Positions 10,485 through 28,149 of a stretch of 64,000 nt of DNA are shown piece by piece. Location of the stretch: assembly GCF_029360765.1 (NCBI RefSeq), contig NZ_JARKNA010000001.1, forward strand, positions 682,001 through 746,000, in the 5' to 3' direction. The stretch's first letter is position 1. Every line of letters begins with the position of its first letter. Under the pieces are notes generated by a model. That model made no database searches. It was given only the letters and a program-made list of their open reading frames with translations, and was not told the DNA's origin. The DNA is from Terrimonas pollutisoli (GTDB lineage: Bacteria > Bacteroidota > Bacteroidia > Chitinophagales > Chitinophagaceae). The position numbers and the translations under genes were made by a program.

Positions 10485-10883
10485 TTAATAGTCGTTACCA
10501 TATCCACCACGGTCACGATTGTAACCGCCGCCACCGCCTTTGTTATAACCGCCGCCGCCGCCTTTTTTAAAGCCGCCGCCACCGCCGCCGTTGCCAAAGC
10601 TTCTTTTCTTGAAGCCACCACCGCCACCGCCAGAGCCTTCTGGTTTAGGACGGCTTTCATTAACTACAATGTTACGGCCATCAACTTCGCTGCCGTTGAG
10701 TGCTGCAATGGCAGCTTGGGCCTGGTCGTCATTCGGCATTTCTACGAAACCAAAGCCTTTGCTGCGGTTGGTAAATTTGTCGTTAACGATTTTGGCTGAA
10801 GTTACTTCACCATGTGCGGCAAAGAGGTTAGAAAGATCCTGATCTTTCAAATTCCAACTAAGGTTTCCTACGTAAATGTTCAT
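10485..10883 (-). CDS. RRM RNA-binding protein with glycine-rich tail
   Basis: Start reset to MNIYVGNLSW (cat at 10881-10883). RNP motifs IYVGNL and KGFGFVEM; tail GGGGGFKKRSFGNGGGGGGFKKGGGGGYNKGGGGGYNRDRGGYGNDY. Confidence 0.93.
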   Translation of the reverse strand: MNIYVGNLSWNLKDQDLSNLFAAHGEVTSAKIVNDKFTNRSKGFGFVEMPNDDQAQAAIAALNGSEVDGRNIVVNESRPKPEGSGGGGGGFKKRSFGNGGGGGGFKKGGGGGYNKGGGGGYNRDRGGYGNDY

Positions 10884-11101
10884 TTTGAGAAATTTAAAAA
10901 ATAAAAAAAGTGCTAACAGTAAACAGTAACCGATGAACATTCTACGTTTATTTCGAAACGTTCAGGACTTATAAAACTGTAAAGAACACCAAGACCATAC
11001 AAAATAACGGATTTTTTTTTGACATTCTGGTAAATATTATTTATAACATCCAGAATTTCATAAAGCTTTGGTAATGAAAGGCGACAAATACCGTTAAAAT
11101 T

Positions 11102-22377: not shown

Positions 22378-23028
22378 TTAGTCGATTAGGTTATTCTTTA
22401 CGGCGAAAAAAACCAGCCCGGCGGTATTCTTGCTCCCAAATCGTTCCATAAGTCGATCTTTAATCGCCTCAACTGTCCGGGGACTTATTTCCATTTTTTG
22501 GGCTATTTCCTGAGCGGTAAATTCCATACAAATAAAGCGGAGCACGTCTCTCTCCTTATCGCTCAGTGTAACCTCATTATTAAGAGATGGCACCACCTTT
22601 TGACGGGAGTGGGATTTCTTTAAAAGAATTCGGTTGACAAAGTTGTTGAGGTAGTAGCCTTTTTCATACACTTCCATTATTGCTCTGCGTATTTCCTGGG
22701 GATCAGCATTTTTCAGCATATAGCCGTTTGCCCCGTTCTCCATGAGATGATAAACGAAACGCTCATCCTCGTACATACTCAGAACCAGCACTTTTATGTT
22801 GGGGTATTGCTTGCTGATAAATTTAGTGGCCTCGATACCGTCTTTACCCGGCATGCGAAGATCCATTAGCACAACATCGGGCTCAGATTGTGCAATCCCA
22901 CTCAGCAATTCGTCACCGTTTTCTGCCTCTTGTACAAATTTGATGTTGGTAAATGGACGCAATGAAAGGATGACTCCTTTTCGGAAAATTTTGTGGTCGT
23001 CAGCAATAGCTACCTTAATGATTCCCAT
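22378..23028 (-). CDS. NarL/LuxR-type response regulator
   Basis: IKVAIADDHKIFRKGV...VVLMDLRMPGKDG...LSDKERDVLRFICMEFTAQEIAQKMEISPRTVEAIKDRL. Confidence 0.94.
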   Translation of the reverse strand: MGIIKVAIADDHKIFRKGVILSLRPFTNIKFVQEAENGDELLSGIAQSEPDVVLMDLRMPGKDGIEATKFISKQYPNIKVLVLSMYEDERFVYHLMENGANGYMLKNADPQEIRRAIMEVYEKGYYLNNFVNRILLKKSHSRQKVVPSLNNEVTLSDKERDVLRFICMEFTAQEIAQKMEISPRTVEAIKDRLMERFGSKNTAGLVFFAVKNNLID

Positions 23029-23078
23029 AGTTTCAGATAAGGGGTGAAATTAGCAAATAATCAGCAACTAACTAGCAA

Positions 23079-23909
23079 CTACTCGTATGGATCGTCCTTA
23101 GGTAATTCAATGGTTACTTTATAATACGTTTGCGAAATATCCTTTTCGAAATAAATATTCCCTTTAGCTACACGCAGGCGGCTGCTAATATTTTTCAGGC
23201 CAAGCCCGATATTACTTTTATTCAGTTTGTCAAAATCAGTTTGAATGATACCTCTTCCATCATGATGTATCCGGAGGTAGAACTTATCGCCGTGCACGTT
23301 CTGTGTCAAATGAATAAAGCTGGAACTGCTGTGCTTTAAAATATTATTGATAAGCTCCTGGACGATGCGAAAAATAATCAGCTCCTTTTCTGGTTTTAAC
23401 CTGTCCTTATAGTCATGGAAGCGGCTACTGGCATTCATGCTGCCTGAGCCACTGATTTTTTGAAAAACATCATTGATGGCAGACTCAAGCCCGAAATTTT
23501 TCAATGTGGGCGGCATAAGGCTGTGGCTGATATTCCGGACCAGCTGAATAGTATCGTCAATTATTTGTCTTGCCTGGAAAATGGCTTGCAATTGGGTTGC
23601 TTTGTCCTGGTTTACCAGGTTTTCATTGAGGTATAGACGGGCGGTTGCCAGCAAAGGGCCGGCATCATCATGCAGATCGGCAGCAAGGCGCTGTCTTTCC
23701 TCTTCCTGCAGCCTTATTGATGCATCAAGAAGTATCTTTTGCTGCTCCTCTTCCATTTTTTGAAGCGTACGTTGGTAGCGGGATACCTTACGCTGGTGGA
23801 AAATTATAAATAACACCAGTCCAACGGTTAATACAAGCATACCCATTGTGCCGATAAAAAGCACGGAGGATACTCCTGAAGATGGGCTGGTGGCTTGTAG
23901 TAAAAACAT
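23079..23909 (-). CDS. Sensor histidine kinase (HisKA_3/NarX type), single N-terminal TM
   Basis: EEERQRLAADLHDDAGPLLATARLYL (H-box); ELINNILKHS (N-box); IGLGLKNISSRLR (G-box). Confidence 0.93.
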   Translation of the reverse strand: MFLLQATSPSSGVSSVLFIGTMGMLVLTVGLVLFIIFHQRKVSRYQRTLQKMEEEQQKILLDASIRLQEEERQRLAADLHDDAGPLLATARLYLNENLVNQDKATQLQAIFQARQIIDDTIQLVRNISHSLMPPTLKNFGLESAINDVFQKISGSGSMNASSRFHDYKDRLKPEKELIIFRIVQELINNILKHSSSSFIHLTQNVHGDKFYLRIHHDGRGIIQTDFDKLNKSNIGLGLKNISSRLRVAKGNIYFEKDISQTYYKVTIELPKDDPYE

Positions 23910-23932
23910 ATCGTGGTTGGGTGGGTAGGGTT

Positions 23933-24628
23933 TTAATTCATGTCAAGGTCTAGGTAAGGTACAGATTTGGGTGGAAGTTTTTGCTTATGACGGTTGCGGG
24001 CATATACGATGATAGAAACACAAAAAAACAGATTTTTAATAGTATCTGCTATAAAAGTCAGGAACCAATATTTTTTAATTTGAGTTTCATCGATATGATT
24101 AACCAGAATATTAAAGAAAAAAGTACCGCCAAGATAAATAAGAATGCCGAGAGATAACCAAAAGCCTGGCTGGCTGAATATATATTCATTATTTACACTC
24201 TTAAAGCTCTGGTAAAAGTAAAATGATATATAGATGAAAATTAAAACGGTTTCAATTCCTACGGATATTGAATCAAGCTTGGCCAGCTGATTGCTTAAAT
24301 AATAGTAAGTCAAAAAACCTGTAAAAAATATTGATAGAATTAATATTATTATTCTAAAAGTTTTAATCGCAATGTTTTGGAAAAGCAAATAGGTCAAAAA
24401 AGAATATTCGCAAAAAGTATAAAACGATTGATAAAATCGTAACATTCCTCTAGGAATAAGATATCTATCCTGAAGGAATAGAAAAGTAAAAAAGACAACT
24501 CCGTAAACTCCAATAATCAAATCGATATTTCTTTTACTTCTAAATAAAATAAAGATGAGGGGGAGAAGCAAATAGGAGTAGATAAGTATATGTAAAAAAA
24601 GCTTTTCTATTATATGGATTTTGTCCAA
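23933..24628 (-). CDS. Polytopic (about 7 TM) membrane protein of unknown function, operonic with the kinase/regulator
   Basis: 231 aa with several hydrophobic segments; 23 nt upstream of the kinase. Apparent TTG start, so the N-terminus is uncertain. Confidence 0.7.
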   Translation of the reverse strand: MDKIHIIEKLFLHILIYSYLLLPLIFILFRSKRNIDLIIGVYGVVFFTFLFLQDRYLIPRGMLRFYQSFYTFCEYSFLTYLLFQNIAIKTFRIIILILSIFFTGFLTYYYLSNQLAKLDSISVGIETVLIFIYISFYFYQSFKSVNNEYIFSQPGFWLSLGILIYLGGTFFFNILVNHIDETQIKKYWFLTFIADTIKNLFFCVSIIVYARNRHKQKLPPKSVPYLDLDMN

Positions 24629-24749: not shown

Positions 24750-25054
24750 AACAGTAACGTTTTTTTTAGTTCAAGAATCGATTCTGGATGTAAAAATTGA
24801 CATTGCAAGGGGGGAATTCCATGGGGTTCTTTTTGTTGGTAAACCATTAGAATCGAACAAAACCCTTTACAGTAAAGAATCGTAGACTATTTACTAAGTA
24901 AACATACTTTCGAAAATAGGGTATTTTTTCGAATCATAGACAGTATTTTCACTATTTTAGCGAGTAGTTTAACGAAGTTAATTTCCTATAGGAAGAGTAG
25001 AGAAGGAAAAAGAAAATTGGGGCTATTTAAAACTTAGCGTGGAAAAGTAAAAAT

Positions 25055-25198
25055 AAGTTGATTGACATTGGATTTGCTTCAGGTTTTCAATGGATAATTG
25101 GAAATCTTGTTATGGACGGTTTACCGGTCAGGATATTGGATGCTGCTAATCTTCGTCAATCAACTTGCAACAAAACTATATCCACATTTTTATGTGAA
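25055..25198. ncRNA. Candidate structured element A, paralogous to 27094-27244
   Basis: Perfect 12-bp stem AAGTTGATTGAC/GTCAATCAACTT enclosing 88 nt, then hairpin TCCACAT-tttt-ATGTGAA. Shared blocks with element B include GACGGTTT, TATATCCACA and ACAAGAGCA. Confidence 0.45.
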
Positions 25199-25440
25199 CA
25201 AGAGCAGTATTGCTGCTTTTAAAAACTCAGTTTTTTTACCGTCATTGTAGTAGACTTCCGACAAATTCTACTCATTTGAAAATATGAAGCACCTATATTA
25301 AAATGTAATATAATGTATATCCATGCTCAATTATATCGCCCAAAAATTTGAAAACGAAACAAATAAGAAATGCAAAAAAAACTACATTTGGAATCGAAAA
25401 ATCACCATTCATTAATTGACTGCTTAAAATCAAAGTTGTA

Positions 25441-26097
25441 ATGCATAGCCAGGAGATAAAAATTGCAATCGCCGATGATCATAAAATTTTCCGCGACGGA
25501 ATCAGAATGGCATTAAAAGACCGGGAGTATTTAAAGATATTATGGGAGGCGGAGGACGGAAAGGACCTTATGCATAAGCTGCAGCTCAAATTGCCGGATG
25601 TGATACTCATGGATATTCGGATGCCGGAAGTAGATGGCATTAATGCTATCAGCATGATCCGTAAGGAGTACGAGGCACTTAAGATAATTGTGCTCACCAT
25701 GTATGACGACCAGGAAATGATTACGAAAATGATGGAGATGGGTGCCAATGCTTATCTCACAAAAACAACAGATCCTGATGAAATATACCAGGCCATCCTT
25801 ACCTGCATGAACGATGATTTTTACTTTAATGAGTTAGTTAATAAAGCCGTATTATTGAAACTGCAGCATAAAAAAACGGTTCGTCAATTTTATCCCAACC
25901 CGGTAAAAATGTCAGAAAAGGAGATACGGATTTTAAAACTTATTGCCGAGGACAAGACTACTGAAGAAATTTCCAAAGAGGTTTTTCTCAGCCCGCGGAC
26001 CATTGAAACCATTCGTCAAAACATGAAGCAAAAAGTGGGGGCCAAAACCATTGCAGGATTAGTAATGTATGCGATGAGAAATAAACTTTTGGAGTAA
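25441..26097 (+). CDS. NarL/LuxR-type response regulator (no adjacent cognate kinase)
   Basis: IKIAIADDHKIFRDGI...VILMDIRMPEVDG...MSEKEIRILKLIAEDKTTEEISKEVFLSPRTIETIRQNMKQKVG. Confidence 0.93.
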   Translation: MHSQEIKIAIADDHKIFRDGIRMALKDREYLKILWEAEDGKDLMHKLQLKLPDVILMDIRMPEVDGINAISMIRKEYEALKIIVLTMYDDQEMITKMMEMGANAYLTKTTDPDEIYQAILTCMNDDFYFNELVNKAVLLKLQHKKTVRQFYPNPVKMSEKEIRILKLIAEDKTTEEISKEVFLSPRTIETIRQNMKQKVGAKTIAGLVMYAMRNKLLE

Positions 26098-26151
26098 TTC
26101 TATTCATTTGCGTGTAATTTCTCTGGTGCCGAATATTTTTACAAATTCTTA

Positions 26152-26901
26152 ATGGAAAACATTAATAATACCTATTTCGACGGCTACTATAAAGATATAT
26201 GGCGGGCAATCATTCCGCCTGAATTCTCATTAAAAGAAGCCGATTTTATTCAGCAATATTTTAATCTTAAAGAGGGGAGTAAAGTGCTGGATATGATGTG
26301 CGGCTACGGCCGGCATGCTATTGCATTGGGGCAAAAAGGTATAGAGGTTACAGCAGTGGATAATTTGGACGAGTATATTTCCGAAATAAAAGAAAGAGTT
26401 GTCCAGGAGCAGCTTCCCGTTTTCCCGGTTAAGGCTGATATACTGAACTATACCCCTGAAGGCATTTTTGACCTGGCAATATGTATGGGCAATAGTCTTT
26501 GCTTTTTTAATAAAGAGGACACACTTAAAATTTTAAGAACAGTTTTCTCGCATTTGAAAGAAGACGGTTTTCTTTTTATCAATACCTGGATGTTGGCTGA
26601 GATTGTTTTTAATAAATTTAAGGATAGGGAATGGAATAAAATCGGCGATGTCAAGCTTATAACCGAGAGCAAATATTTGCTTCAGCCTTCCCGAATTGAA
26701 ACCGAACACATGATCCTTGATCAGCATGGAAACGTAGAGTTTAAAAAAGCTATTGACTACATTTATTCAATTGCTGAAACTGAACAAATACTTTCAGAAG
26801 CTGGCTTCAGCACGAAAGATGTTTATAGTGTGCCGGGACGAAAAAAATTTAGCCTGGGCGATACAAGGGCTTATATTGTTGCTCAAAAAAAGCCTTCATA
26901 A
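26152..26901 (+). CDS. Class I SAM-dependent methyltransferase
   Basis: SKVLDMMCGYGRHAIALGQKGIEVTAVDN (SAM motif I). Confidence 0.9.
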   Translation: MENINNTYFDGYYKDIWRAIIPPEFSLKEADFIQQYFNLKEGSKVLDMMCGYGRHAIALGQKGIEVTAVDNLDEYISEIKERVVQEQLPVFPVKADILNYTPEGIFDLAICMGNSLCFFNKEDTLKILRTVFSHLKEDGFLFINTWMLAEIVFNKFKDREWNKIGDVKLITESKYLLQPSRIETEHMILDQHGNVEFKKAIDYIYSIAETEQILSEAGFSTKDVYSVPGRKKFSLGDTRAYIVAQKKPS

Positions 26902-26973
26902 TAATCTTTTCATTTGGTAAAACTGTTCCATAAAGAAACCCCTTCTCTCGAAGGGGCTCTGAACGTTACTGTT

Positions 26974-27081
26974 ATGAAAGAAAAAATTTATTATGCTTTG
27001 AGTAATAATAGGAAAAGGCTAATGGCTTCCGGTTTTAGTTTGACAGTTTTCCATAAAAGAACGGATCAAAAAACAGGTTGA
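26974..27081 (+). CDS. Candidate small ORF, 35 aa: MKEKIYYALSNNRKRLMASGFSLTVFHKRTDQKTG
   Basis: 18-nt initiation region identical to that of the small ORF at 24749; shared peptide pattern ALxNxR and a later S-x-VF; ends 12 nt before structured element B. Confidence 0.5.
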   Translation: MKEKIYYALSNNRKRLMASGFSLTVFHKRTDQKTG

Positions 27082-27093
27082 TAACTATAAAAA

Positions 27094-27244
27094 CAGAAAG
27101 TTGATTAGTAAAGGAGAATCATTCAGGGTTTTTCAAAGGATTGGGAATGACTTTTCTGGACGGTTTGGACATTGGATGATGGGGAACGATCTTCCGATAT
27201 AATCAACTTTCTGAGACAAAAATATATCCACACTGTAGTGTGGA
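27094..27244. ncRNA. Candidate structured element B, paralogous to 25055-25198
   Basis: Perfect 14-bp stem CAGAAAGTTGATTA/TAATCAACTTTCTG enclosing 92 nt, then hairpin TCCACAC-tgta-GTGTGGA. Confidence 0.45.
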
Positions 27245-27474
27245 CAAGAGCACAACTTCTCAATTTAATCTTATCGGCTTTTACGGTGAGAATAGTAAAT
27301 AGACTGTACTAATGCATAGTTATTTTTCGTGTCAATCAGAGTAGAAGCCCTACTGGTACTTTCCACAAATTTGAAATCAAGTACTTCTACTATGGTATAT
27401 ATTGCAGGAATTTTTCAACTTGCATTCGTAGAACAAATACCAAACCCTATAGCTTTACAAATTTAAATTGATCC

Positions 27475-28149
27475 ATGAAAAACCCAGAATCTAACTCCTT
27501 AATCAAAGTAGCCATTGCTGATGATCATGCTCTTTTCCGTACTGGCGTAAAAACTTCACTGTCAAGCAGGAAAGATATTCAAATGGTCGCAGAAGCCGAG
27601 AACGGCATGCAATTACTAAACCTATTACGCCACATTCAGCCGGATGTAGTTTTGCTGGACATCCAAATGCCAATCATGGATGGTTTAACTACATTGCCGG
27701 AAATAAAGAAACTTTATCCGGGTGTAAAAGTAATTATGCTTTCGATGCATAATGACCATTCGGTTATCTCAAGAATGATGGAAATCGGGGCCAATTCCTA
27801 CCTGACAAAGGAATCAGGATCCGAAATGATCTACGATGCCATCAGAGCCGTATATGAGCAGGATTTCTTTTTCAATGATCTTACTAATAAAGCTTTGTTG
27901 AGCGGCCTTCGTACAAAACGTACAGCCGAATCATCTATGCCACAAGACGTGCAGCTAACGGATAAAGAAATAACTATTTTGAAGTTGATGTGCGACGAAA
28001 AAAGTACAAAAGAAATTGCTGATATAGTAGACCTGAGTCCCCGAACTGTGGAGGCAATCCGTGATAAATTAAAAACAAAGACCGGAACAAAATCTATGGC
28101 AGGCCTGGTAATGTATGCCGTAAAAGCCGGTTTGGTAGAACAAGCATAA
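27475..28149 (+). CDS. NarL/LuxR-type response regulator (no adjacent cognate kinase)
   Basis: IKVAIADDHALFRTGV...VVLLDIQMPIMDG...LTDKEITILKLMCDEKSTKEIADIVDLSPRTVEAIRDKLKTKTG. Confidence 0.93.
   Translation: MKNPESNSLIKVAIADDHALFRTGVKTSLSSRKDIQMVAEAENGMQLLNLLRHIQPDVVLLDIQMPIMDGLTTLPEIKKLYPGVKVIMLSMHNDHSVISRMMEIGANSYLTKESGSEMIYDAIRAVYEQDFFFNDLTNKALLSGLRTKRTAESSMPQDVQLTDKEITILKLMCDEKSTKEIADIVDLSPRTVEAIRDKLKTKTGTKSMAGLVMYAVKAGLVEQA

Follow-up and report, generated by a model that had tools for sequence, protein, structure and literature searches.

In the Gac system, a LuxR-type response regulator drives several unlinked small RNAs (sRNAs) with a shared upstream palindrome and repeated short motifs. 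The Qrr1-5 sRNAs of Vibrio, which require sigma-54 and Hfq, have the LuxO response regulator beside one sRNA and further copies elsewhere. Among the Bacteroidota, the closest described system is that of the FopS/GibS sRNAs of Bacteroides with RbpB (PMC11697453). The locus considered here lies in 64,000 nt of Terrimonas pollutisoli DNA (the 'window'; NZ_JARKNA010000001.1, positions 682,001 to 746,000), where two related intergenic elements each precede the gene for a NarL/LuxR-type response regulator, RR_A or RR_B. Sequence comparison makes it quite likely that these elements belong to a multicopy regulon of minus-strand sRNAs activated by RR_A/RR_B. The original prediction took them for an undescribed structured RNA with paralogues adjoining LuxR-type regulators, which is borne out, but the reading should probably move to the opposite strand and widen from two leaders to a dispersed, regulator-driven sRNA family. 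The features are given below, with the sRNA 5' and 3' ends placed from the promoter position and the U-run.

25049..25166, minus strand: sRNA-A, predicted transcript of ~118 nt, read right to left; fold z -3.4
25055-25066 and 25155-25166: arms of the sRNA-A clamp P1; U-run 25053-25049
25171..25178, minus strand: sRNA-A -7 box TAGTTTTG; -33 TTG at 25199-25201, spacer 20 nt
25237..25252, no strand assigned: proposed sRNA-A regulator site (upstream activating sequence, UAS) TACTACAATGACGGTA, TAC-N10-GTA
25441..26097, plus strand: RR_A, NarL/LuxR-type response regulator (Response_reg + GerE), divergent from sRNA-A
26929..26958, minus strand: intrinsic terminator, possible 3' end of a longer form of sRNA-B (~280 nt)
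27089..27212, minus strand: sRNA-B, predicted transcript of ~124 nt, read right to left; fold z -3.7
27094-27107 and 27200-27213: arms of the sRNA-B clamp P1; U-run 27093-27089
27217..27224, minus strand: sRNA-B -7 box TATTTTTG; -33 TTG at 27245-27247, spacer 20 nt
27282..27297, no strand assigned: proposed sRNA-B regulator site (UAS) TACTATTCTCACCGTA, TAC-N10-GTA
27475..28149, plus strand: RR_B, NarL/LuxR-type response regulator (Response_reg + GerE), divergent from sRNA-B

Bacteroidota sigma-A promoters have a -7 TAnnTTTG box and a -33 TTTG element (PMC7366714, PMC9723704). Among covariance-model matches, TAnnTTTG stands on the minus strand at one fixed place in 51 of 52 copies, and TTG lies exactly 20 nt upstream of it in 75 of 87; the base preceding this TTG is mostly C and the full -33 TTTG element is usually unmatched. 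Between 24900 and 27400 in the window, TAnnTTTG occurs just twice on the minus strand, in the -7 boxes of sRNA-A and sRNA-B, each time with the -33 triplet. Judged by these motifs, the promoter between closing stem and regulator is of the Bacteroidota sigma-A type and directed leftwards, with its predicted start at the closing stem. A second hairpin (TCCACA/TGTGGA) described in the original prediction is indeed present in the two window copies, yet most of the family lacks it: a stem of at least 5 bp occurs at its place in 18% of 76 copies, against 3.4% of shuffles. As a conserved RNA stem it was rejected, being confined to a minority of copies; it is the spacer of the sigma-A promoter, not the conserved feature of that stretch. 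A perfect TTATCCACA, which is DnaA-box-like, lies between -33 and -7 in the promoter spacers of L015, L047, L048 and L052, and an inverted TGTGGATA in those of other regulator-linked copies. Convergent DnaA boxes in the spacer were rejected: some copies have TTATCCACA and most do not.

Further upstream, between sRNA and regulator, 60 of 76 copies carry TAC-N10-GTA at precisely the same offset, compared with none of 76 shuffled sequences and none in a control region ~250 nt away. The palindrome lies outside the search model and therefore was not selected for by the search. Two gap-free conserved blocks, TTTACGA at -75 and GTAAATACCGA at -60, lie upstream of the -7 box, from which both are numbered. 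NarL-type 7-2-7 sites consist of two heptamers over 16 bp, and TAC-N10-GTA has their spacing; it also fits the 16-bp TAC...GTA pattern of such sites, a sequence match to the generally known consensus. We propose that this palindrome, centred ~78 bp upstream of the predicted start, is the binding site of RR_A/RR_B. Unlinked copies keep the same promoter and palindrome. A second TAC-N10-GTA, TACTTCTACTATGGTA, is present at 27382-27397 in a conserved block ahead of RR_B, where it could possibly serve autoregulation of RR_B.

The family extends well beyond the window. BLAST with element B gave matches in 17 of 101 genomes, its own included, and the covariance-model search of Chitinophagaceae suggested by the original prediction was productive: model R1, built from 20 sequences, matched 162 of 399 genomes, with 1-12 copies per genome across the family and 4 to 12 in each of 14 chosen genomes. 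Matches in phylum and order samples were restricted to Chitinophagaceae, except for three weak ones. Scanning GTDB species genomes with an exact DNA pattern gave at least 118 stretches; those with a genus in the title belong to what we take to be Chitinophagaceae or Chitinophagales, among them Niastella, Flavihumibacter, Flavisolibacter, Terrimonas, Lacibacter, Ginsengibacter, Paraflavitalea, Pseudoflavitalea, Longitalea and Pinibacter. The order-wide sample held 89 copies in 36 genomes, 28 of them head-to-head with RR_B or RR_A, mostly at 143-425 nt from the regulator, and 61 unlinked. The unlinked copies are intergenic; they often converge on the neighbouring gene, and some are arranged in tandem. 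Tandem arrays, in which each sRNA gene has its own promoter and genes are ~450-1500 nt apart, contain four genes in L082 and three in L083 and L084. We found no description of this sRNA family in the literature, and no Rfam family, 6S RNA included, matched either window element at gathering score; four matches in all came from a lax Rfam search (E up to 5), each far under its own gathering score.

Linkage to the regulators is reinforced by co-occurrence. Across the 399 Chitinophagaceae genomes, 156 have both the sRNA and RR_B, six the sRNA alone (mostly incomplete genomes or weak matches), 18 the regulator alone and 219 neither, and the association was seen again in the order-wide sample. RR_A is 83-95% identical in other genera and RR_B 72-97% where linked, whereas downstream genes are far less conserved (methyltransferase 47-66%, lyase 36-64%, against 72-97% for the regulator). 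Several observations weigh against an RR_A/RR_B regulon of minus-strand sRNAs. The co-occurrence is confounded by shared descent, the trait being characteristic of one section of a single family, and its significance is inflated, although exceptions to the pattern are few; the 18 genomes with the regulator alone are themselves a difficulty. Because R1 includes columns of the promoter, the promoter counts depend partly on the search model, whereas the palindrome counts are independent of it. Searched alone across the genome, the palindrome gave 41 matches against 34 for reversed controls, and deriving a genome-wide regulon from it was rejected because the pattern is too degenerate. In the source genome, the palindromes of the two dispersed copies (on C44 and on C66) are imperfect. 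Folding energy alone gives no strand (mean z -2.9 minus, -2.5 plus). Finally, several genera have unlinked copies only. This last point would also suit a real minus-strand sRNA that is constitutive or under another regulator, with some other factor binding the palindrome and RR_A/RR_B being linked for historical reasons; these genomes have many other response regulators, and binding by RR_A/RR_B is a prediction. The near-complete co-occurrence with RR_B, the NarL-type 7-2-7 spacing and the maintenance of the divergent arrangement across genera make such an arrangement unlikely, though it is the most serious competitor of RR_A/RR_B control.

Further features bear on the strand. A U-run, of median length 5, follows the 3' stem arm. 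Of 74 copies, 33 have a downstream terminator-like hairpin on their own strand, compared with 10 on the opposite strand and 4 in shuffled sequence. At one stem position, 18 of 50 distinct copies have a U-G wobble; the plus-strand reading would place mismatched A and C there. Stem pairing is 89.6% as minus-strand RNA and 86.7% read as plus-strand RNA; no more than 87.1% was reached by 500 partner shuffles (0/500 at the observed value), and compensatory changes occur at 9 of 14 clamp pairs. Promoter, terminators, U-run and wobbles on the minus strand thus argue for a divergent sRNA and not a leader. A cis-acting leader or riboswitch of the regulator mRNA would account for the 28 copies upstream of a regulator in the same orientation, mostly at 140-430 nt, and the plus strand folds almost equally well. 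However, 61 of the 89 copies have no RR_A or RR_B behind them and many end against a convergent gene; given this dispersal and the promoter direction, a plus-strand leader was rejected as very improbable. RNAalifold on the first plus-sense alignment gave a weak consensus only. A MITE-like (miniature inverted-repeat transposable element) mobile element with terminal inverted repeats could explain inverted ends and dispersed and tandem copies, but is hardly credible given the low identity among copies, promoter and palindrome conserved outside the inverted ends, compensatory changes within them, positions beside RR_A/RR_B kept across genera and the lack of viral matches; carriage by phage was likewise rejected, with no match in viral contigs.

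Other observations of the original prediction concern the elements themselves. The perfect stems lie where it placed them, that of copy B with 14 bp enclosing 92 nt, and the conserved blocks align between both window elements. Both regions fold better than dinucleotide shuffles (plus-strand z -4.1 and -5.0, 0/200 shuffles; the minus-strand values listed above are against the same kind of shuffle). Duplication of the elements together with their regulators was an ancient event at best, because both sRNA-regulator pairs span many genera and most copies are regulator-free. Whether the regulators are 'orphans' is doubtful, because a HisKA_3 kinase, conserved between genera, sits beside RR_A:

23079..23909, minus strand: HisKA_3 histidine kinase adjacent to RR_A and its candidate partner; identity to the kinases at RR_A loci in other genera 76-95%

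This gene is part of a conserved RR_A neighbourhood found in several genera (22378-24628, minus strand), which comprises RR_0, the kinase and a 231-aa membrane-like protein with no Pfam match. Ahead of RR_B, a 24-aa open reading frame, MVYIAGIFQLAFVEQIPNPIALQI (27392-27466, plus strand), has similar peptides in some genera. It was rejected as a conserved peptide; it is broken in many genera, and the conservation there is therefore probably at the DNA level.

Each element would be a self-contained minus-strand sRNA gene whose sigma-A promoter fires at the closing stem, giving an RNA of ~120 nt, or a longer one where readthrough reaches a downstream terminator. P1, a 13-bp 5'/3' stem around the loop, is part of the minimum-energy fold in 72 of 75 copies. 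By joining the RNA ends it may expose the loop, which is A/C-rich, G-poor (12% G) and predicted to be largely unpaired. RUCC motifs (AUCC/GUCC) average 4.4 per loop and are for the most part unpaired (0.72, against 0.64 for the remaining loop bases), and TCCAAT and ACCGTCCAG are strongly over-represented and repeated. Loop length differs between copies, which argues against coding. Phosphorylated RR_A/RR_B would bind TAC-N10-GTA and activate all copies jointly, whether linked or dispersed, in the manner of GacA with RsmX/Y/Z or LuxO with Qrr. Once made, the sRNAs may act post-transcriptionally through the loop motifs, whose repetition would suit either many short mRNA pairing sites or titration of an RNA-binding protein. 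Candidate pairing sites would be complements of CAUCCAAUGUCC and ACCGUCCAGAAA in start-codon regions. For titration at RUCC, the obvious candidate is a protein of the RRM type, with five matches in this genome and one inside the window. The latter, a glycine-rich RRM_1 protein (MNIYVGNLSW...; 10485-10940, minus strand), is a candidate sRNA partner. A CsrA sponge acting through plus-strand GGA motifs was rejected because CsrA is absent from this genome and the RNA is on the opposite strand.

The small RNAs of environmental Bacteroidota have been little explored, and for this family-wide multicopy sRNA the promoter can be read and a candidate regulator named; the whole sRNA regulon is therefore testable in one deletion strain. 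Like FopS/GibS, these are multicopy paralogous Bacteroidota sRNAs with canonical sigma-A promoters and a mostly unpaired functional region, and RRM-type RNA-binding proteins are also present. In contrast to FopS/GibS, both RNA ends are clamped in P1, the sequence and bacterial family differ, an upstream palindrome is conserved and response regulators are linked. With the ends paired, the shared 5' R1 seed and free 5' end of FopS are lacking, and no Rfam match to FopS was obtained, the presence of a FopS model in the Rfam copy used being unchecked. The Qrr1-5 arrangement is similar in that a response regulator adjoins one sRNA and more copies lie elsewhere, but the promoter here is of the sigma-A type. 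Gac/Rsm (RsmX/Y/Z) and Csr/UvrY share the LuxR-type regulator, unlinked sRNA copies, upstream palindrome and short repeats; they differ in that here some sRNAs adjoin the regulator gene, no CsrA/RsmA partner was found and the G-poor loop carries UCC rather than GGA motifs. A tentative extension, to which we give a rather low probability, is a Csr/Rsm-like circuit across the Chitinophagaceae in which phosphorylated NarL-type regulators drive clamped sponge RNAs whose RUCC sites titrate an RNA-binding protein. If the loop does act as a protein sponge, the Csr/Rsm logic would have been invented a second time, in bacteria that lack CsrA.
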